Source: Dyadobacter flavalbus
GTDB lineage: Bacteria > Bacteroidota > Bacteroidia > Cytophagales > Spirosomataceae
DNA length: 64,000 bases
NCBI RefSeq assembly: GCF_006149045.1
Contig: NZ_VBSN01000076.1
Location: forward strand, 62,001 to 126,000
Reading direction: 5' to 3'
Shown here one piece after another: positions 859 through 64,000 of the stretch. Position numbers and translations under genes: made by a program. The stretch's first letter is position 1; each line of letters starts with the position of its first letter. The notes beneath the pieces were generated by a model, which ran no database searches, was not told the origin of the DNA, and was given only the letters and a program-made list of their open reading frames with translations.

Positions 859-3800
859 TTAGAAACCGATATTAACGCCCAATAACAGCGTGCGCGGCTG
901 AGGGGCTGTGTAAAAATCATTTCCAAGCGCAAATTTCAAATCCCTTTCACTCATGTCATCCGTATTTACTTCCGGGTCCCAGCCTTTATAGTTGGTAAAA
1001 GTGGCAAGGTTCAAAGCAGAGACATAAATGCGTATGCGGTCCATTTTGATCCGGCTCACAAGACTTGACGGAAGGTTGTATCCTAATGTCATTGTGCGAA
1101 GGCGAAGGTATGAACCATCATAAATATAGCGCGTGGATGCCTGATTGCCATTTCCACGGTAAAAACGTGCTTCCGGAACATTTGTGTTCGGATTTTGCGG
1201 CGTCCATGCATTCAACTGATCGGCAGTCTGGTTGTCTTCATAAATGCCGTTTGCAGAAGAATACTGGCCTACTCCGTAAAAATTGATTTTATTTCCTGCA
1301 ACACCGTTAAAGAATACGTTCAGGTCAAATCCTTTATAAGAGAAAGTATTGGTAATACCGCCTACAAATTTCGGGTTCGGATTGCCCGCTGCTACGCGGG
1401 TAGCACTGTTATAACCATTGTTTGTTACGGTTGAACGATCCACTGTTCCGTCCGGATTGGGTGTGTTTTTATAGAAAAGGGCGTCTCCGTTTGCAGGATC
1501 AACACCTGCATACTCTACAGTATAAAAAACACCGACCGGCTGTCCTTCCATAACGCGGCTCATATTCCTCATTCCTCCTTCAATAATTTGTCCCTGAATG
1601 TCGATAACCTTGTTCTTGTTATTTGCGACATTAATGGAAGTGTTCCATTTGAATGCACCTACAAGGTTCTGTGTGTTCAGTACGAATTCAAAGCCTTTGT
1701 TTTCCAGCTTTCCAACGTTGGCAACCTGAGTAGAGAAACCTGTTGTATTTGGAACATTTACTTCCAGCAAAAGTCCGTTGGTCTTTTTTACATAGTAGTC
1801 GATTTCACCATTAATACGGTTGTTGAAAAAGCCGAAATCAATACCAAAATCAGTTTGCTTTGTGGTTTCCCATCTCAGATCAGGGTTGCTAAGCTGCGAA
1901 GGCCGCTGTCCGGCTGCCCCTGCGTAACCTGCATCTCCTGCATACAAGCCAAGCTGAGGAAAATCGCCGATTTCTGAATTACCTGTAGATCCGTAGCTTC
2001 CTCTGAATTTAAGAAAGCTTATGATGTTGTTGCTTTTAAGAAAGCTTTCTTCGGTAAGAACCCAGCCTGCAGACACAGACGGGAAAAATCCGTAACGGGA
2101 GTTTACTCCAAACCTGGAAGAACCATCAATACGCGCGCTTGCTGAAAGCAGATATTTATCTGAAAACTTGTAATTCAGACGTGCAAAATAAGACAGGAAC
2201 CGGAAATTCGTTTCGGTCGAAGATCCGTCCGATTTGGTAGCAGCACTGGCAATTTTTTTGTAAGAATCGGAAGGGAACTGGGTTCCTGCAATGTAGCTGT
2301 ACTTCGTTTGTGACTGCTGATACGACATACCCAATGTCGCTCCGAAAGAATGAGCATTGTGTATCTTGTCATATGAGATAAAGTTGTTGGTATTGTAATT
2401 GGTGACGAAAGTAGCATAGTTTTCACCCAGCCCACTACTTGCATTGCTTACATTGCGGATATTCTGACTTTGCCAGTAACCTTCCTCATTCTGGTTTAAA
2501 AGGTCAATGCCAAGCTCACTGCGGAATTTCAGATCTTTTGTAAAGTTAATCTGAGCATAAGCATTGGTAAGGTTCCGGAAAGAAGTAGCTACATAACTTG
2601 CGTACTGGATTGAAATCATCGGATTGAAGTACAATGGCACGTTCACGTCACCGGGAGGTGTTCCGGTAGGCAATCCCGTTTCAGGATCGGTAAACGGTGT
2701 CAAAGGCGTAAGCGCTGCCATCTGCAATGGATTTGAGAAAGCGTTATCTCCGGGCAAACGCTTGTTATTGGTACGTGCAAGTCCCATGGATAATCCGATC
2801 TGCAGCCAGTTATATGCCTGATGATCCAGGTTCATACGGGCTGAAAGACGATCCAGTTTGTTGCCGATGATGGTACCTTTCTGATCAAGGTATTGGCCTG
2901 ATAAAAAGAATTTTGTTTTTTCACTTCCGCCATTTAACTGAAAGTCAAGCTGCTGCATTGGGCCTTTCTGAAATGCCTGATCCTGCCACAAATATTCCTT
3001 TTGATTTGGCGTATTGTAAGTGCCGAGGCTGTAATATTCAAGAAATCCGCCGGGGCCCAGCATGTATTGGGTGTAAGAATCCGGATCCGTTGTTTCAACA
3101 CCGTCAATACGGTCGCGATTATTGGCAGCCATGGTATAAAATTTCACGTACTGCTCAGCATTCAGGAAGTCAACGCGTCTTGTGGCTTTGGATGAACCCA
3201 GCTGATAGTTGATGCTTACATTGGTTTTTCCGGCTTTGCCGCGTTTTGTTGTGATAAGTACAACGCCGTTTGCAGCACGGGAACCATAAATGGCGCCTGC
3301 GGAAGCATCTTTCAGTATCTCAATGGATTCAATATCATTGGAGTTGATATCGGATAAAGGGTTGGTCGCACCTCCGTTGTTGCTCAGGTCCGATGTCGTG
3401 ATCGGCATTCCGTCCACCACGTACAATGGCTGGCTGCTCGCACTGATGGACGAATTGCCCCGGATACGCACATTGATTCCCTGCCCCAGTTTTCCCGAAC
3501 CGCTGTTAACATAAACTCCGGCCGCACGTCCCTGCAATGCAGCATCCACGCTCGCAACGGGCATGTTCTGGATTTCAGTGCCTTTTACCTGCGCAATGTT
3601 TCCGGTAAGGTCGCGCTTGATCTGCGAGCCGAAACCGGTAACAACCACTTCGCTCAGATTACGCGAGTCACTTGCAAGCTTTACGTCGATAACCGTCTGG
3701 CTGCCTACGGTTATTTCCTGTGCAAGCATTCCTACAAAGCTGAATACAAGTACAGAGCCGTTTGATGGCACACTGATGGAATACGTTCCGTCGGCATCCG

Positions 3801-45887: not shown

Positions 45888-47228
45888 TCAGATAATCAGC
45901 GTAAAAACAGTCCCTTTTCCGACTTCGGAAGAAACGTTGAGCTGTCCGTTATGCTGCTGCAGAATCTGCCGGGAAAGGCTTAATCCGATTCCCGAGCCTG
46001 TTTTTTTGGTGGTATAAAAAGGAATAAAGATATTCTCAATGGCTTCGGGCTCAATCCCGTCGCCATTGTCTTCCACCTCGATCATCACCGCATTGTCCGT
46101 CTGATATGCGGATAATGTAATCAGGCGGTTAGTCTGGGAAGAAAATGCTTCGGCGGCATTTTTGATCAGGTTGATCAGGACCTGCTGAATCTGGCTCGCG
46201 TCGGCTTTTACAGTCAGCGTTTCAGGCTTGACGGAAAGTTTCCAAAGCACTTTGGATTGCGTCAGATCTGTTTGCAGAAGCTGTATAACTTCATGTAAAA
46301 GTTCGGCAACACTCAGGCTCGCAAAAACCGGCTTGGGCAAAGTCGTAAAATCGCGGTATGCATTTACAAACTGCATCATGCCCTTGCTTCTTTTTTCAAG
46401 CGTGTGCAAAGCTTCCTTAAGGTCGTTTACCGCTTCCTGGTCCGTTGTGGATTTCTCAATGTCTTCATTTACAATGAGCCTCATCGTACCGACAAGCGAA
46501 ACAATCGGCGTCATGGAATTCATGATTTCATGGCGCAGCACCCTCGTCAGATTTTGCCAGGATTCCACTTCCTGCTGCTGAAGTTCGGTCTGGATATTTT
46601 GCAGAACCACAATCCTGACCCACATGCCACGCAGCTGAATGGCCGCGCCCTGCAGGGCAAGAGGCTGGTCTGAAGGTGTCCGGTACAGTTCACGTACGCC
46701 GCTGTCCAAATTGGAAAGCAGTTCAAAAAGCCTCGGATGTTTGTCTTTCAGTTCGCCAAGCTGATGCAGCCTGTAAATGCCGAGCATCCGCAAAGCCGCA
46801 TTGTTGATCAGATTCACTTGCCCGGTACTGTCAAAAGTGATGAGCCCGGTTCCGATATGCTGCACAATGGTGTTCAGATACTGAAGATTGGCTTCTTTTT
46901 CGGCCCGCGCCTGACGAAATGCGTGTAAAACTTCATTGAACTGCTGATTTAGCTCCTTGAAAGTCCTGCCCATTTTATTGTCCGACCGGAAATTGATCGT
47001 AAAATCGGAATAACGGACCGATTCCAGAAAATAGGTCAGTTTTCTGTTGACATTGGTTACATACTGATACAGCAGTGAACCCTGCACGAAAATAAAAACG
47101 GCGCCCAGAACATAAATGAGCATGCTGTTGGTATGTCCCGAAGCCAGCCATGCCACGGCAATAACGCTCAGGATAATCACTGTTATCCTGAGCATGATCA
47201 TGATGCTGAAATGTCGTAATCCGACCAT
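45888..47228 (-). CDS. Sensor histidine kinase (NtrB-like, two-helix membrane sensor)
   Basis: 446 residues. Two N-terminal hydrophobic segments (about 12-30 and 36-56) with almost no periplasmic loop, then a linker and PAS-like domain (about 115-215). HisKA: LTRVLRHEIMNSMTPIVSL with phospho-His233. ATPase: LINLIKNAAEAF (N box), VEDNGDGIEP (G1), IFIPFYTTKKTGSGIGLSLSRQIL (F/G2). The short periplasmic loop suggests membrane or cytoplasmic signal sensing. No response regulator adjoins. It is 25 bases after the HAD gene on the same strand. It resembles kinases paired with NtrC-type regulators of efflux loci; one such regulator is at 56902. Confidence 0.94.
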   Translation of the reverse strand: MVGLRHFSIMIMLRITVIILSVIAVAWLASGHTNSMLIYVLGAVFIFVQGSLLYQYVTNVNRKLTYFLESVRYSDFTINFRSDNKMGRTFKELNQQFNEVLHAFRQARAEKEANLQYLNTIVQHIGTGLITFDSTGQVNLINNAALRMLGIYRLHQLGELKDKHPRLFELLSNLDSGVRELYRTPSDQPLALQGAAIQLRGMWVRIVVLQNIQTELQQQEVESWQNLTRVLRHEIMNSMTPIVSLVGTMRLIVNEDIEKSTTDQEAVNDLKEALHTLEKRSKGMMQFVNAYRDFTTLPKPVFASLSVAELLHEVIQLLQTDLTQSKVLWKLSVKPETLTVKADASQIQQVLINLIKNAAEAFSSQTNRLITLSAYQTDNAVMIEVEDNGDGIEPEAIENIFIPFYTTKKTGSGIGLSLSRQILQQHNGQLNVSSEVGKGTVFTLII

Positions 47229-56901: not shown

Positions 56902-58269
56902 TTACAAACCGTACTTTTCCATTCTTCTGTAAAGTGCTGCGCGGCTCAGGCCCAGTTCGCGTGCGGCATCTGTAATATTTCCGTTAAAGCGTTTCATTGC
57001 CTTGATGATCAGCGTTTTCTCCATATCTTCCAGATCAAAGCCCGTAGCCGTCACAGGCTGTCCGCCGGAACTTTTGAGGAAAAGGTCTTCAGGCTGCAAC
57101 GTTTTTTCCTGCGAAAGGATCACGGCGCGCTCAATGGCATGCTGCAGTTCGCGGATGTTTCCCGGCCAGTTGTACTGCTGCATTTTCTTGATCAGTGCGC
57201 TGCTGACGTCGTTGACAGGACGGTTGTATTTTTTGCTGTACTGCTTCAGGTAGAAATCCGCAAGTGCGCTGATATCCTCGGGCCTTTCACGAAGCGGCGG
57301 AAGTTCCAGTTCAATGGTATTGATCCTGTAAAGCAGATCCTGACGGAATGTTTTTTCCGATACCATTTTTTCAATGTTCATATTGGTGGCGCAAAGCAGG
57401 CGTACATCCAGTGAGATCGGTTTGTTGGAACCCACACGCGTAACGCGCCGTTCCTGTATGACAGTCAACAGCTTGGCCTGCAGCGGAAGCGTAAGGTTGC
57501 CGATTTCATCCAGAAAAATAGTTCCGCCTTTTGCTTCCTCAAACCTTCCTGCGCGGTCTTCCTTGGCATCCGTAAAAGCGCCTTTCACGTGTCCGAAAAG
57601 CTCGCTTTCAAACAGTGTCTCGCTCAAAGCGCCCAGATCAACGACGACAAACGGCTTGTCCGAGCGTCTGGAATGTTGATGGATATGTTTGGCAAGCTGC
57701 GTTTTGCCTGTACCGTTTTCTCCGAGTATCAGAACGTTTGCGTCCGTTGCAGCCACGCGTTCAGCAGTGGCCAGCACCTGCCGCATGGATTCGCTGGATG
57801 CCACGATCGTGTCTGCGGCCGGCTTGGGTTTCTTGCTGTCTTCCTTGCTTTTTTCTTCCGGCACAACTACCGCTTTGTCCGCTCCGCCTTCGAGCGCGCC
57901 GGCAATGGTTGCAAGGAGCTTGTCGTTTTCCCAGGGTTTCAGTACAAAATCGGTGGCGCCCGCTTTGATGGCGCGGATGGCCATTTCAATATCACCATAT
58001 GCCGTGATCATGATTACTTTTGAACTGGGCTTGATGTCTAGAATACGGTCGAGCCAGTGAAATCCTTCCCGTCCGCTGTTGACGTCACGGGTAAAGTTCA
58101 TGTCCAGCAGAATAAGGTTGTAGTCGCCGTTGGTAATCAGAAAAGGGAGTTTCTGCGGATTCTTTTCGATATCGACGGCTTTTGCGTGCCGTTTCAACAA
58201 AAGTTTGGCTGCGCTGAGCACGTCAACATCGTCGTCGATGATCAGGATTTTTGCTTCAGAGAGTTGCAT
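56902..58269 (-). CDS. NtrC-family sigma-54-dependent response regulator
   Basis: 455 residues. Receiver (about 1-120): acidic IDDDVDV, phosphoacceptor Asp56 in LILLDMNFTRD, switch Thr in MITAYGD, Lys in FVLKPWEN. Central AAA+ domain: Walker A GENGTGKTQLAK (183-194), sigma-54 contact GAFTDA (230-235), Walker B GTIFLDEIGNL (249-259) and the arginine-finger segment RQDLLYRINTIELELPPLRER. C-terminal Fis-type helix-turn-helix: RFNGNITDAARELGLSRAALYRRMEKYGL. It activates sigma-54 RNA polymerase. It is divergent from the ABC export operon, whose upstream region has two dyads and a sigma-54-like promoter. Confidence 0.95.
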   Translation of the reverse strand: MQLSEAKILIIDDDVDVLSAAKLLLKRHAKAVDIEKNPQKLPFLITNGDYNLILLDMNFTRDVNSGREGFHWLDRILDIKPSSKVIMITAYGDIEMAIRAIKAGATDFVLKPWENDKLLATIAGALEGGADKAVVVPEEKSKEDSKKPKPAADTIVASSESMRQVLATAERVAATDANVLILGENGTGKTQLAKHIHQHSRRSDKPFVVVDLGALSETLFESELFGHVKGAFTDAKEDRAGRFEEAKGGTIFLDEIGNLTLPLQAKLLTVIQERRVTRVGSNKPISLDVRLLCATNMNIEKMVSEKTFRQDLLYRINTIELELPPLRERPEDISALADFYLKQYSKKYNRPVNDVSSALIKKMQQYNWPGNIRELQHAIERAVILSQEKTLQPEDLFLKSSGGQPVTATGFDLEDMEKTLIIKAMKRFNGNITDAARELGLSRAALYRRMEKYGL

Positions 58270-58423: not shown

Positions 58424-58459
58424 TGTCCGCCGCCGAACAAAAATGTCCGTTATCGGACA
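58424..58459. promoter_or_regulatory. Two 16-bp dyads, candidate binding sites for the NtrC-type regulator
   Basis: TGTCCG-CCGC-CGAACA (58424-58439, one mismatch) and TGTCCG-TTAT-CGGACA (58444-58459, perfect). Their centres are 20 bases apart, about two helical turns, and the second centre lies about 75 bases upstream of the -24 element. This is the layout of NtrC-type upstream activating sites. Confidence 0.65.
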
Positions 58460-58523
58460 AAGCAGCAGGTTTGTAAATATTTATGTATATTGATTTTCAG
58501 TGCCTTAAATGCGTAAATGTTCT

Positions 58524-58540
58524 TTGGCACAAGGATTGGA
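58524..58540 (+). promoter_or_regulatory. Sigma-54-type promoter for the export operon
   Basis: TTGGCACAAGGATTGGA aligns with the sigma-54 consensus. The -24 GG is at 58526-58527, and the -12 pair at 58538-58539 is GG where GC is usual, with the correct 10-base spacing. It is 46 bases before the adaptor ATG and downstream of two dyads. Confidence 0.6.
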
Positions 58541-58585
58541 TAGTAAAGATCAAAGTTTAACAGCGAATCCAATCTTTACAATATA

Positions 58586-59896
58586 ATGGAAGTCAAAACA
58601 CCTAATTCAACGAGCAGCAGTAACGGCTTTACCGGGGGCTCATCGTCTATGGATAAAATCAAACCAAAAAAATTCTGGACTACCCAACGCATCGGTATCA
58701 TTGCCGGAAGCACATTGCTGGTTGCCTTTCTGATCTATCAGTTTTTCTTTGCAGACAAACGCAGCAAGCTCAACGTAGAGCAGGACAAACTGACTGTATC
58801 GACTGTCAGACAAGGAAAATTTGACGAATTCATTGTGGTTACGGGTGTTGTGCAGCCATTGAAAACCATTCAGCTGGATGCGATTGTAGGCGGCTATGTT
58901 ACCGAAAAACTGATTGAAGGCGGAAACATGGTAAAACAGGGCGACGTACTGCTGCGGCTCGAAAACCAGAACCTGAAACTGAGCTTTCTTCAGTCGGAAA
59001 CGGAAGCCAGCCGATTGGTAAACGATCTGCAGAATACGCGTCAGAGCCTGCGCATTGCCCGGTTTACCCTTCAGAAAACATTAAGCGAACTGGATTATCA
59101 GATTGATCAGGCGAAAGATGCGCATGAGAGAAATACCAAACTATACAAGGATAAAGTGATTCCGGATGCTGATTTCCTGAAAACGAAAAGAGAATTTGAG
59201 CGGCTTACCAAACAGCGTGAAATCGAGATCGAATCGCAGAAATATCAGGAAGAAAACTCACGAATGCAGATTTCCCAGCTCGAAGGAACGCTGGCGAGCA
59301 CGCAAAAGAACGTAAGTTTGTGGAGGCAGACACTTGATAATCTCGTGGTTAAAGCGCCGGTTTCAGGATTGCTTTCGTCCATGAATGTGGAAGTCGGATC
59401 GAATATCAACCAGGGACAGAACATTGGCCAGATCGATGACCTGAACGGATTTAAAATGCGTGTGAGCGTGGATGAGCATTATATTTCCAGGATTTTCGCC
59501 GGGTTGCAGGGTTCCATGGAATTCAACGGAAAAGATTATGGACTGAAGATCATCAAAATATATCCGGAAGTACTGAGCGGCCGGTTTGAAGTCGATATGC
59601 AGTTTGACAAAGGCGCTCCCGAACTGATCAAAAGAGGCCAGTCGGCACCGATCCGTCTGCAGCTTGGACAGCCATCGCAGGCAACGCTGCTGCCTGTCGG
59701 CGGGTTCTTCTCCGAAACAGGCGGAAACTGGGTGTATGTAGTCGGCGAAGACGGAAAACGCGCTTCCAAACGCAATATTACATTAGGCCGCAAAAATCCT
59801 GAATATTTCGAAGTACTGGAAGGCCTGAAACCGGGCGAAAAGGTGATTACGAGCTCGTACGAGAACTTCGGGGATAATGAGGTGTTGGAATTTTGA
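58586..59896 (+). CDS. HlyD/MacA-type periplasmic adaptor
   Basis: 436 residues. A cytoplasmic Ser/Asn-rich start (about 1-33) precedes one membrane helix (IGIIAGSTLLVAFLIYQFFFA, about 36-56). The barrel-sandwich lipoyl halves are VTGVVQPLKTIQLDAIVGGYVTEKL and LDNLVVKAPVSGLLSSMNVEVGSNI. They bracket a long helical hairpin (about 130-245, heptad-like FLKTKREFERLTKQREIEIE). The last part is beta-barrel and membrane-proximal. This is the adaptor of a MacAB-type or efflux ABC system, joining the permease to an outer-membrane channel. No TolC-type gene is in view. Confidence 0.92.
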   Translation: MEVKTPNSTSSSNGFTGGSSSMDKIKPKKFWTTQRIGIIAGSTLLVAFLIYQFFFADKRSKLNVEQDKLTVSTVRQGKFDEFIVVTGVVQPLKTIQLDAIVGGYVTEKLIEGGNMVKQGDVLLRLENQNLKLSFLQSETEASRLVNDLQNTRQSLRIARFTLQKTLSELDYQIDQAKDAHERNTKLYKDKVIPDADFLKTKREFERLTKQREIEIESQKYQEENSRMQISQLEGTLASTQKNVSLWRQTLDNLVVKAPVSGLLSSMNVEVGSNINQGQNIGQIDDLNGFKMRVSVDEHYISRIFAGLQGSMEFNGKDYGLKIIKIYPEVLSGRFEVDMQFDKGAPELIKRGQSAPIRLQLGQPSQATLLPVGGFFSETGGNWVYVVGEDGKRASKRNITLGRKNPEYFEVLEGLKPGEKVITSSYENFGDNEVLEF

Positions 59897-60531
59897 TGGC
59901 TGTTAGCCATTAGCTTTTAGCGATTAGTTGTATTTTTTAGCCAAGTGCTTAGCACTTTAAAGTCAATTATCAAGTGCTTTGATTACAGTAACCAAAAGTC
60001 AATCGCTAAAAGCCAACAGCTTACAGCCAACAACCAATCCTCATTTCGTGTTTAATTTTTTAATAAACGAATTAAGCATTTTGTGAATTTCGGTTAAATC
60101 GTTTGCAAGTTTTTCATATTCATCCAATGAAAGAAAATGAAGGTATTTACTAAGAAGCAGCTGATATTCAAGCTCGGAAGCAGAGCCGCTGGCAATTACC
60201 ATGAATTTGGCCAGTTCGGCATCTGAAAGTCTTCCGCATCCTTCGGAAATGTTTGAAGGTATGGAAACGGCAGAACGGCGAATCTGACTGACAAGGCCAA
60301 ATAATTCATTCTTAGGAAAATTTTTTGAAATGGCATAAATATCAAGAACTAGCTGATGACTTTTTTCCCAAACTCTTAATACCCTGAAATCTTTCATTTG
60401 ATCTATAAACATTTGACTTGTTTCCTTTAGAATCAGAATCAGATGTTAGGTCACAAAGCAATACAGAATTTGTAAACCACATTTATCATAACCAAATTGC
60501 CGATAGCTAAAAGCTAACAGCCAAAAGCCAG
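59897..60531. mobile_element. Repeat-flanked cassette carrying a four-helix-bundle gene
   Basis: The DNA between the adaptor stop and the ATPase start begins TGGCTGTTAGCCATTAGC and ends with AGCTAAAAGCTAACAGCCA-type sequence, an imperfect inverted repeat (59897-59919 with about 60503-60522). Internal inverted copies CTTTTAGCGATT (about 59915-59926) and AATCGCTAAAAG (60001-60012) also occur. The cassette holds only the minus-strand four-helix gene. A perfect AAGTGC/GCACTT hairpin lies around 59943-59957. No transposase. Mobility is inferred from placement and repeats. Confidence 0.5.
60041..60397 (-). CDS. Four-helix-bundle protein (S23 / 23S rRNA intervening-sequence protein family)
   Basis: 118 residues from the ATG at 60395-60397; an ATG at 60410-60412 adds five residues. 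Family motifs: FRVLRVWEKSHQLVLDIYAISKNFPKNELFGLVSQIRRSAVSIPSNISEG and the helical C-terminus ASGSASELEYQLLLSKYL. Such proteins bind nucleic acid in some cases; relatives include proteins encoded in 23S rRNA intervening sequences and the Avd accessory of diversity-generating retroelements. No reverse transcriptase is nearby. It sits antisense inside an otherwise co-directional export operon. Confidence 0.92.
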   Translation of the reverse strand: MKDFRVLRVWEKSHQLVLDIYAISKNFPKNELFGLVSQIRRSAVSIPSNISEGCGRLSDAELAKFMVIASGSASELEYQLLLSKYLHFLSLDEYEKLANDLTEIHKMLNSFIKKLNTK

Positions 60532-60538
60532 AAAAACG

Positions 60539-61216
60539 ATGATCAAAATTACAAACCTTCACAAAATCTTTTCTACCGAAGAAGTAGAGACCACAGCGCT
60601 GAACGGCATTGATATGGATGTCAGGGACGGCGAGTTTGTTGCCATTATGGGGCCTTCAGGCTGCGGGAAATCCACGTTGCTGAATATCCTCGGGCTTCTG
60701 GACAATCCAAGTGAAGGTTCTTACGAATTTTACGGAACCGAAGTTGCAAAAATGTCGGAAAGACAGCGTGCGCAGATCCGCAAGGGAAATATCGGGTTTG
60801 TGTTTCAGAGCTTTAACCTTATCGACGAACTGACCGTGTATGAAAATGTGGAACTTCCTTTGCTTTACCTGAAAACGCCGCCGGCAGAACGCAAGGAAAA
60901 AGTGGAAGCCGCCCTGACGCGCATGAACATGATGCACCGCAGAAACCACTTTCCGCAACAGCTTTCGGGCGGGCAGCAGCAGCGTACGGCAATCGCCCGG
61001 GCTGTGGTTGCAACGCCGAAGACAATCCTAGCGGATGAGCCTACGGGTAACCTCGACTCCAAAAACGGGGAAGAAGTGATGAACCTGCTCAGCCAGCTCA
61101 ATGCCGCCGGAACAACGATTCTGATGGTGACGCACTCGCCTTACGATGCCGGTTTTGCACACCGGATTGTGAATTTGTTTGACGGAAAGATAGTGACAGA
61201 AAAAGTACATGTGTAG
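60539..61216 (+). CDS. ABC transporter ATPase (LolD/MacB type)
   Basis: 225 residues. Walker A: MGPSGCGKSTLLNILGLL near residue 37. Q-loop: NIGFVFQSFNLIDELTVYENVELPLLY. Signature: FPQQLSGGQQQRTAIARAVV. Walker B: TILADEPTGNLDSKNGEEVM, H-loop: MVTHSPYDAGF. The pattern fits the LolD/MacB class, which powers export or extraction through an FtsX-type permease. It follows the repeat-flanked cassette and ends 1 base before the small secreted gene. Confidence 0.95.
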   Translation: MIKITNLHKIFSTEEVETTALNGIDMDVRDGEFVAIMGPSGCGKSTLLNILGLLDNPSEGSYEFYGTEVAKMSERQRAQIRKGNIGFVFQSFNLIDELTVYENVELPLLYLKTPPAERKEKVEAALTRMNMMHRRNHFPQQLSGGQQQRTAIARAVVATPKTILADEPTGNLDSKNGEEVMNLLSQLNAAGTTILMVTHSPYDAGFAHRIVNLFDGKIVTEKVHV

Positions 61217-61733: not shown

Positions 61734-64000
61734 ATGTTCAAAAACTATCTAAAAATCGCATGGCGGAATTTGCTGAAAAATAAGTTATTCAGTCTGATCA
61801 ATATACTTGGCCTTGCCTTGGGAATGGCCTGCAGTCTGCTGATTATGCTTTGGGTGCAGGACGAAATGAAAATGGACCGGTTTCACAAGAATGACGCCCG
61901 GATTTTCTCGGTTATGGAAAACCAGCATTATTCCGGCGCTATCAATACGTATTCGTCCACGCCGGGAATTTGGCGGAAAATATTGTAAAAGATATTCCGG
62001 AAATTAAATTGGCAAGTCAGGTGATTTGGGAAGAAACCCCGGTGCTGAAAGCCGGCAATATTTACGATAACGAAAAAGGTCGCTACGTTCAGGGCGATTT
62101 CCTGAATATATTTTCTTTTGATCTCAGCCAGGGCAATGCCGCTACTGCATTGAAGCGCCCGGACGGGATTGTGATATCAAAAAAACTGGCTGAAAAGTAT
62201 TTTAAAGGTCAGGATGCAATGGGTAAAGCCATGCGCGTTGATAACAAGGATGATGTGATCGTAACGGGTATTTTAGAAGAACTCTCTCCTTACTCATCCA
62301 TGAAATTCGATTTCCTGATGAGCTACGACCATTGGAGGAAAAGCAATCAATGGGCAAAGGAATGGGGAAATAACGGTCCGCGCTGCGTTGTATTGCTGGC
62401 TGAGAATGCTTCTGTTGACAAAGTCAATGCCAAGATCAAGGGTTATCTGAAAACCAAGAATAAAGACAGTAACATAGATATATTCCTGGTCAATTACGGG
62501 CAGTCGTATCTTTATTCCAAATGGGATTCAGGCAGACAAAACGGCGGACGAATCGAATATGTGCGTCTTTTTACAATTGTTGCCGTTTTTATACTGATTA
62601 TTGCATGCATCAATTTCATGAATCTGGCCACTGCCCGTTCTGTGAAAAGAGGCAAGGAAGTAGGGCTGCGAAAAGTTGTGGGCGCCTATAAAGCCAGCCT
62701 TATCGGCCAGTTTATGGGAGAATCCATACTGATCACGCTGATTGCACTTTTCTTTGCCCTGGCCATTGTACTTATTTTACTTCCTTCGTTCAATTCATTA
62801 ACGGAAAAACAGCTGTCACTGGATTTTCTTAATCCGTCGTTGCTTTTACTCCTACTTGGACTTACGGTTATAACCGGAATTGTGGCAGGCAGTTATCCTG
62901 CATTATTTATGTCGTCGCTCAATCCGGTTGTTGTACTGAAAGGTGCACTGAAATTCAAGCCGAGTGCGGCCTATTTTCGTCAGGGGCTGGTTGTATTCCA
63001 GTTCGGGCTGTCAATTCTTTTGATACTTTCCATGATTGTGGTTTATCGCCAGATTCAGTTTATCCAGAACAAAAATCTTGGTTTTGACAGGGAAAACCTG
63101 CTTTACATCAATAATGTGGAGAAAAGCATTGAAAAGAATTTTGAGGCATTCAAGCAGGCGCTGGAAAATGAGCCCGGCATCAAGTCGGTAACGTGCTCCC
63201 AGTCTGATCCGATCAATTATGGAAGTTCTACGATGGGCGTTACATGGCCTGGAAAAGATACGACGCAAAAAATCCTGTTCAGCGTAAATACGATTGGCTA
63301 TGATTTTATAAAGACAATGGGCATAACGTTGCTGGACGGCCGCGATTTCAACCCCGAATTTGGAACGGATACGACCAACTTTATTATTAATGAAGCTGCT
63401 GCCAGGAAAATGGGATTCAAAGATCCTGTTGGAAAAGAGCTGACCATTTTTGATAGGAAAGGGAAAATAATCGGGCTTATGAAGGATTTTCATATAGGTT
63501 CTCTACATGTAGCCATTGAACCTCTGATTATCGGGTTCCAGTCAAGAAATTCATACCGCGGCGCTGTGCTGATCCGGACAGAAGCCGGCAAAACCAGGCT
63601 TGCCATTCAGAATATTGAGAAGGTTTACAAACAGTTTAGCCCGGGGTTTCCTTTCAAGTACCGCTTTACAGATGAAGAATTCGGAAATCTTTACAAAGCG
63701 GAAAATGTAGTCAGCCGGTTAGCCAATTATTTTGCATTTCTGGCCATATTCATTTCCTGCCTGGGCCTGTTCGGATTGGCAGCATTTACCTCGGAGCAGC
63801 GGACCAAGGAAATAGGTGTCAGAAAAGTGCTGGGTGCAAGTGTTGCCAACCTTGTTGGCATGCTTTCCATGGATTTTGTAAAGCTCGTGGCAATTGCAGC
63901 AGTCATTTCGTTCCCGGTTGCAGGATATTTTCTGCATGGATGGCTTGAAAAGTATGCTTACCGCATTGAAATGGAATGGTGGTATTTTCTGGTTGCAGGC
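61734..64000 (+). pseudogene. FtsX/MacB-type ABC permease with an apparent one-base frameshift (partial)
   Basis: The first 78 codons read MFKNYLKIAWRNLLKNKLFSLINILGLALG, with a membrane helix at about 18-40, up to NTYSSTPG. The frame then ends at a stop at 61986-61988. From about 61970 the next frame is open to the window end and continues the family with LAENIVKDIPEI, KLAEKYFKG and GLRKVVGAYKASLIGQFMGESI, three more membrane segments, a second periplasmic half and VLGASVANLVGMLS near the end. One missing base around 61965-61970 would restore one permease of about 790 residues. It may be a real frameshift or a sequence error. Confidence 0.82.

Follow-up and report, generated by a model that had tools for sequence, protein, structure and literature searches.

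Paired dyads and a phased −24 element mark scattered export genes as a probable NtrC-type, sigma-54-dependent regulon in Dyadobacter and related bacteria

A pair of palindromic dyads, followed at phased distances by a −24 element, lies upstream of an export operon in Dyadobacter flavalbus and recurs in front of export genes scattered over the genomes of this organism and its relatives. Very likely, an NtrC-type two-component activator and sigma-54 together switch on both an adaptor/ATPase/TolC set and many permeases that lack an ATPase of their own. In several bacterial groups, mostly environmental ones, the scattered export-pump genes that carry the pair are probably switched on jointly by one regulator. 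The proposed mechanism is of a standard kind, with an NtrC-type activator working together with sigma-54. The sites, their conservation, their genomic context and the phase of their spacing were established by computation, as was the presence of RpoN and of a kinase. The operon was found in a stretch of 64,000 nucleotides (hereafter the window), in which the following features are relevant:

58424–58439, plus strand: distal dyad TGTCCG-N4-CGAACA (TGTCCGCCGCCGAACA), one mismatch, predicted activator site
58444–58459, plus strand: proximal dyad TGTCCG-N4-CGGACA (TGTCCGTTATCGGACA), perfect, predicted activator site
58524–58539, plus strand: sigma-54-like −24/−12 element TTGGCAC-N5-TTGG (TTGGCACAAGGATTGG), 75 bp downstream of the dyads
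56902–58269, minus strand: NtrC-family response regulator (receiver, Sigma54_activat, Fis-type HTH), divergent to the adaptor gene
45888–47228, minus strand: histidine kinase, likely the partner, orthologue of the regulator-adjacent kinase in most other genera examined
58586–59896, plus strand: periplasmic adaptor (HlyD/DarC-like), first gene of the operon, from reading frame and family matches
60539–61216, plus strand: export ATPase (DarD/LolD/MacB-like), from reading frame and family matches
61734–64000, plus strand: MacB/FtsX-type permease frame, continuing to 64093 beyond the window

The initial annotation had described two dyads, one perfect and one with a single mismatch, with centres 20 bases apart, and the coordinates agree with the sequence (centres at 58431.5 and 58451.5, spacing 20 bp). 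The same is true of the GG-N10-GG element in a TTGGCAC context, which had been placed about 75 bases downstream of the dyads and 46 bases before the adaptor start. TTGGCAC occupies 58524–58530, the two GG pairs (58526–58527 and 58538–58539) have 10 bases between them, and the TGG of the −24 element begins 81 bp past the start of the proximal dyad; the gap between the end of the element and the adaptor ATG (58586) is 46 bases. The first permease frame of the operon is broken into two overlapping frames (61734–61988 and 61970–64093), by a frameshift or an assembly error, and no permease was seen at the corresponding place in the closest relative (L353). Between the adaptor and ATPase genes lies a gene for a 23S rRNA-intervening-sequence-type protein (60041–60412, minus strand; PF05635, 134.7 bits), and a gene of this type is found at the same place in that relative. 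The predicted leader holds an inverted repeat (GATTGGAT/ATCCAATC, window positions 58535–58577) that overlaps the −12 element. It was discarded as a conserved feature, being exact in just 5 of 30 Dyadobacter leaders.

The arrangement is conserved at orthologous loci. From 102 relatives of the regulator, 80 were kept (51–98% identity), the closest named one being that of Dyadobacter sediminis (98% identical). A divergent adaptor gene is found within 700 bp at 68 of these 80 loci; the other 12, some of them on short contigs, are without an adjacent divergent adaptor. Alignment of the orthologous upstream regions, proposed earlier as a check, bore out both elements. Paired dyads (each with ≤2 mismatches, centres 20–22 bp apart) are kept at 60 of the 68 adaptor loci, an exact TGGCA-N6-TT is present at 65, and 58 have the pair and the element together, while none of the 68 has any of four control dyads (the reversed form and three further palindromes). 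The offset of the TGG from the start of the proximal dyad is 69–71 or 79–81 bp in all 65 adaptor promoters that have the element. The genera represented are Dyadobacter, Telluribacter, Persicitalea, Runella, Larkinella and Chitinophaga, covering two orders, with Dyadobacter in the Cytophagales and Chitinophaga in the Chitinophagales.

As the dyads lie in the intergenic region common to both divergent genes, 155–190 bp from the regulator start, they could serve autoregulation of the regulator gene, a role that could coexist with one at the adaptor. That they serve autoregulation only is highly improbable. At two Dyadobacter loci (L061 and L063) other DNA parts the regulator from the adaptor, and there the pair keeps close to the adaptor, ~130 bp upstream of it, with >1 kb between pair and regulator, a position that argues for service of the adaptor promoter. 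Furthermore, pairs precede export genes or operons at 117 other places, among the matches listed.

The dyad had also been put forward as a usable regulon word, and this was upheld for the pair with a −24 element at export genes but not for the single dyad. The window contains five dyads with ≤2 mismatches against a shuffle mean of 1.73, and five or more were reached in 5 of 100 shuffles. Across the genome, neither the single dyad with ≤1 mismatch (19 sites vs 23 for the reversed pattern) nor the bare TTGGCAY-N5-TTGS pattern (21 vs 21) is enriched, and regulon scans with either one were dropped for that reason. Because of this lack of enrichment, the working regulon word is the pair, its centres 20–21 bp apart, together with the −24 element in phase. 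The pair was matched in 47 of 48 congeneric genomes (the regulator–adaptor locus counted), compared with one match across all 48 for the reversed pattern. A pair spaced by 21 bp was found in 16 of 20 genomes from other genera (control none), genomes that were chosen from the orthologous regulator loci and of which most were already known to carry the pair at the adaptor. Pairs with 21-bp spacing are present in 36 of the 48 Dyadobacter genomes as well (control none), and the spacing was therefore rejected as a lineage fingerprint separating Dyadobacter (20 bp) from the others (21 bp).

A scan for the dyad and the −24/−12 element together, likewise suggested earlier, revealed that the pair with its −24 element recurs before export genes elsewhere. 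In total, 126 pairs outside the regulator–adaptor locus were examined among the matches listed in the 48 congeneric and 20 other genomes; the two site lists (65 and 61) were counted by hand, regulator–adaptor sites were removed by position, and sites from related genomes are not independent. For 117 of the 126 (among the matches listed), one of four kinds of gene starts 80–307 bp downstream (median 110), namely a MacB/FtsX permease (75), PadR (25), an export ATPase (13) or a protein of 95 aa (4). Within the same listed matches, a permease gene lies behind the PadR gene in 25 of 25 cases and a TolC-like gene behind the ATPase gene in 13 of 13. One of the permease references was wrongly framed at its start, and other permease references were used alongside it. 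None of 32 control sites in the D. flavalbus genome (single dyads and TTGGCAY matches) has an export-gene neighbour; this set excludes three tested sites (L002, L003 and L015) and the window promoter (L169).

Nine of the 126 pairs (among the matches listed) are without an export gene (L271, L272, L274, L299, L328, L370, L381, L383 and L389). In Larkinella, near-perfect pairs face other genes (L271:2489–2525, L272:2522–2558 and L274:2481–2517), and the regulon may thus be wider there. One of the non-export targets in Larkinella is a small secreted protein with a weak match to DUF3244, and a similar one was recognized by eye at L328 (Dyadobacter). The ~95-aa protein, which starts with MSHIAIPIP or MAHIAIPIP, is found behind pairs at L207:2318–2605, L200:2302–2589, L281 and L294, and in Runella tandem copies precede a permease (L281:2657–2959 and 2964–3263; L294:2548–2913 and 2918–3214). 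Two copies of the protein were compared with Pfam and neither gave a match; it is a possible component of the export system. Loss of a permease at L200 and L207 was considered and dropped, since the frame behind the pair is that of the 95-aa protein.

The −24 element accompanies the dispersed pairs as it does the adaptor promoters. Among the matches listed, TGGCA-N6-TT with ≤1 mismatch follows 107 of the 117 target-bearing pairs (55 exact), compared with a mean of 16.7 and a maximum of 27 when the same stretches were subjected to single-base shuffling. Of these 107 listed elements, 101 are at offsets of 57–59, 67–71 or 78–83 from the proximal dyad, phase windows that were set after the first 80 sites, with 46 sites added later. 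The offsets advance in steps of approximately one helical turn, which is what one would predict for an activator that has to face the polymerase across a DNA loop. At the place of the −12 GC, the 65 adaptor promoters have GG in 51 cases (the window among them), GA in 12 and GC in 2; the 107 other regulon sites (among the matches listed) have TT in 19, GA in 15, GT in 15, TA in 12, GG in 8 and GC in 7, with others making up the rest. The −12 GC is nearly absent, and a textbook GG-N10-GC search would consequently miss most of these promoters. The likeness to a sigma-54 promoter noted in the initial annotation thus stands for the −24 TGGCA with TT at a fixed distance (65/68) and fails for the −12 GC (2/65 and 7/107).

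The scarcity of the −12 GC also speaks for a promoter that does not depend on sigma-54, with TTGGCA stemming from another kind of promoter or from chance and the regulator using another form of polymerase; the unenriched TTGGCAY-N5-TTGS pattern and a GAFTDA loop in place of GAFTGA point the same way. Such a promoter is nevertheless very unlikely in view of TGGCA-N6-TT at 65 of 68 orthologous promoters and its phased recurrence at the listed regulon sites (107/117), the Sigma54_activat domain of the regulator (227.7 bits) and the presence of RpoN, for which the genome has one match (413.9 bits, cut-off 277.35). 

Promoters of the D. flavalbus genome were given a module score combining the proximal dyad and the phased −24 element, using a PWM built without L200–L202 but including congeneric orthologues. 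Approximately 14 promoters bear the module: those of the adaptor operon (37.2), a second operon with ATPase and TolC genes (33.1), 10 permeases, a PadR–permease unit (22.9) and the 95-aa protein (28.6). The genome has 29 matches to FtsX/MacB-type permeases, fragments included, and 23 of these were scored; two second pieces (L232 and L241), three fragments (L246–L248) and a permease at a contig end (L234, scored separately at 13.0) were left out. Ten of the 23 reach 21.9–29.2 and the remainder ≤6.9, while 2002 null tiles, which overlap and in part come from loci picked for single dyads, score ≤20.3. That the pair and its phased −24 element stand at ~14 promoters suggests that one signal drives all of them. 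The 1.5 kb flanks of the 10 module-bearing permeases contain nothing that matches either reference ATPase. The other 13 of the 23 have no module within 400 bp before their start. One sits behind a PadR gene that has its own module, and other module-less permeases closely trail another permease; these could be operon-internal and read from its promoter.

A tandem cluster of about ten FtsX/MacB-type permease genes (C74:123.7–153.7 kb) starts within the window. Before the third permease (window coordinate ~67000), a perfect dyad (L016:12010–12025) also makes up the stem of a long, terminator-like hairpin with T's behind it (L016:11996–12040), and this one sequence may be both terminator and activator site. 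We give hardly any credence to the notion that the dyads in general are repeats or terminator hairpins devoid of regulatory meaning, and it was set aside as a general explanation because context counts against it despite this one site: 117 of the 126 listed pairs lie 80–307 bp before the start of an export gene, 107 of them with a −24 element, and the flanks vary between sites.

The divergent regulator has the domains of an NtrC-type protein (PF00072, 68.4 bits; PF00158, 227.7 bits; PF02954, 57.3 bits), in agreement with the earlier description. The GAFTDA loop that had been called intact is instead a variant, one residue off GAFTGA, a motif referred to as invariant in the accessible part of PMC12316311. 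The D. flavalbus genome encodes at least four EBPs related to the regulator, and the loop in the four compared reads GAFTGA in two, GSFTGA in one and GAFTDA in the closest paralogue. Most of the 80 orthologues share a strongly conserved DNA-binding helix (GNITDAARELGLSRAALYRRMEKYGL or a variant of it); L116 deviates, the helix of L117 was unreadable in frame, and the helices of the four paralogues compared are different.

In a sample of 296 genomes from the phylum, with the regulator called at E≤1e-125, the strict pair was found in nine (control none) and the regulator in 74. Eight of the nine pair-bearing genomes are among these 74 (Fisher p 8e-5), and in three genomes (G326, G205 and G147) the pair lies 121–509 bp before the regulator gene. 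The strict pair is missing from 66 of the 74 genomes with the regulator, and the word is accordingly limited to part of the regulator's range, or it has diverged or is missed by the pattern.

With at least four related EBPs in the genome, a paralogous EBP or a repressor might read the dyads while the adjacent regulator controls something else, and in one of the nine pair-bearing phylum genomes (G269) the regulator was not found at E≤1e-125. We consider this unlikely, as members of two orders keep the pair at the locus of the regulator itself, the pair precedes the regulator gene in G326, G205 and G147, and the paralogues differ in their binding helices. In addition, the operon promoter of the closest paralogue has a different palindrome. 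This paralogue (46%) belongs to a self-contained cluster of adaptor, TolC-like gene, ATPase, permease, EBP and kinase (L355 and L404, C28:711500–722500), in which the homology match to the permease is interrupted by stops or by a break in the frame. In the promoter of the sister adaptor, TGGCATGGAATTG (a TGGCAT-N5-TTG element) is located exactly 69 bp after the palindrome CGTGCG-TTAA-CGCACG. Judged from the sequences, this fits two sister systems of equal architecture that would use different words, in line with the different binding helices; the CGTGCG palindrome has a T run behind it and could be a terminator. The sister promoter, which is outside the null set, has a module score of 22.6, chiefly from the −24 part (dyad part 9.0), and the module score alone thus cannot separate the two systems.

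In 17 of the 20 non-Dyadobacter loci listed, a gene of the same type (about 390–500 aa) lies directly behind the regulator, and HATPase_c was found in all four neighbour kinases tested. The D. flavalbus kinase (45888–47228; HATPase_c, 90.9 bits) lies 10 kb from the regulator and is 73% identical to the Telluribacter kinase, the next best match being 28%. To judge by neighbourhood in other genera, it is the likely partner of the regulator.

Taken together, these data suggest a model of how the operon may be switched on. The kinase would phosphorylate the regulator, which would then assemble into a higher oligomer on the paired dyads, the two dyads representing the putative upstream activating sequence of this divergently encoded NtrC-type response regulator. 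The bound regulator would loop the DNA and bring about open-complex formation by the RpoN holoenzyme at the element at 58524–58539, the predicted sigma-54 promoter of the adaptor–ATPase–permease operon. One signal would thereby have the adaptor, the ATPases and the outer-membrane channel made together with many alternative permeases. What we infer is binding by the regulator, a phosphorelay, sigma-54 transcription, an activating and not a repressing effect, and the use of one ATPase/adaptor/TolC set by the permeases.

NtrC-family systems combine a receiver–AAA+–Fis HTH activator with upstream inverted repeats, a −24/−12 promoter and RpoN, and the system in the window has a corresponding activator, inverted repeats, a −24/−12 element and RpoN. 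Sigma-54 regulons of this family have reportedly been reconstructed for the Clostridiales (PMC6615313); unlike these, the system described here has dispersed exporter and permease targets in Bacteroidota, a loose −12 and a GAFTDA loop. The regulator scores under the TIGR01818 cut-off for NtrC itself (324.2 vs 558.6 bits), and it also lies under the NifA equivalog cut-off (325 vs 528.85). The NifA-type activating sequence is TGT-N10-ACA, and the dyad fits this geometry but adds CCG/CGG arms.

The exporter proteins resemble several known systems. The best NCBIfam matches are DarC for the adaptor and DarD for both ATPases, and the permeases match DarB as well as MacB; the scores are below the curated DarBCD cut-offs (DarC 194.3/450, DarD 273/375, DarB 144.4/700). 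Unlike in DarBCD and MacAB-TolC, the permeases here are many and mostly apart from ATPases. ADOP are orphan permeases of Acidobacteria, with no ATPase gene beside the permease. Similar to ADOP (TIGR03434), there are many paralogous permeases here, with 10 site-bearing ones lacking a neighbouring ATPase; two permeases score 290.2 and 326.9 bits, under the cut-off of 622.3. Resembling PadR/permease-prefix-domain pairs, the PadR-linked permease at L208 in another Dyadobacter has perm_prefix_2 (72.3 bits, cut-off 35). Given scores under the DarBCD, MacAB and ADOP cut-offs, the exporter proteins are not filed in those families. By analogy with the darobactin and macrolide exporters that they resemble, they may transport peptides or envelope-active molecules.

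Literature searches found no published account of this activator or dyad word, no paper on 'orphan permease', and none on the activator or driving ATPase of orphan FtsX/MacB permeases. According to the accessible part of PMC12316311, COG0577/FtsX permeases are enriched under predicted sigma-54 promoters, Bacteroidia included, which is claimed there as first evidence; these belong to the same family (COG0577, FtsX-like) as the regulon permeases here. That part of the paper leaves the sigma-54-linked FtsX permeases without a named activator, activator site or list of regulon members, and the words Dyadobacter and Chitinophag- are absent from the paper's main text. For the family-level link between sigma-54 and FtsX drawn in the accessible part of PMC12316311, a likely activator, site and kinase are now named.

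The conserved word unites permeases lacking an ATPase with one adaptor, ATPases and TolC under one regulator, and the paired dyads with the phased −24 element can serve as a search tool in Dyadobacter, Runella, Larkinella and Chitinophaga. The regulon may encode a modular exporter under one two-component/sigma-54 switch, in which one adaptor, two ATPases and TolC would be made alongside at least ten exchangeable orphan permeases as well as PadR–permease pairs, a reading to which we give an even chance. If it is true, common subunits would power the otherwise ATPase-less FtsX/MacB permeases of the Bacteroidota, and the regulon word would tell which permeases belong with which energy and adaptor set.
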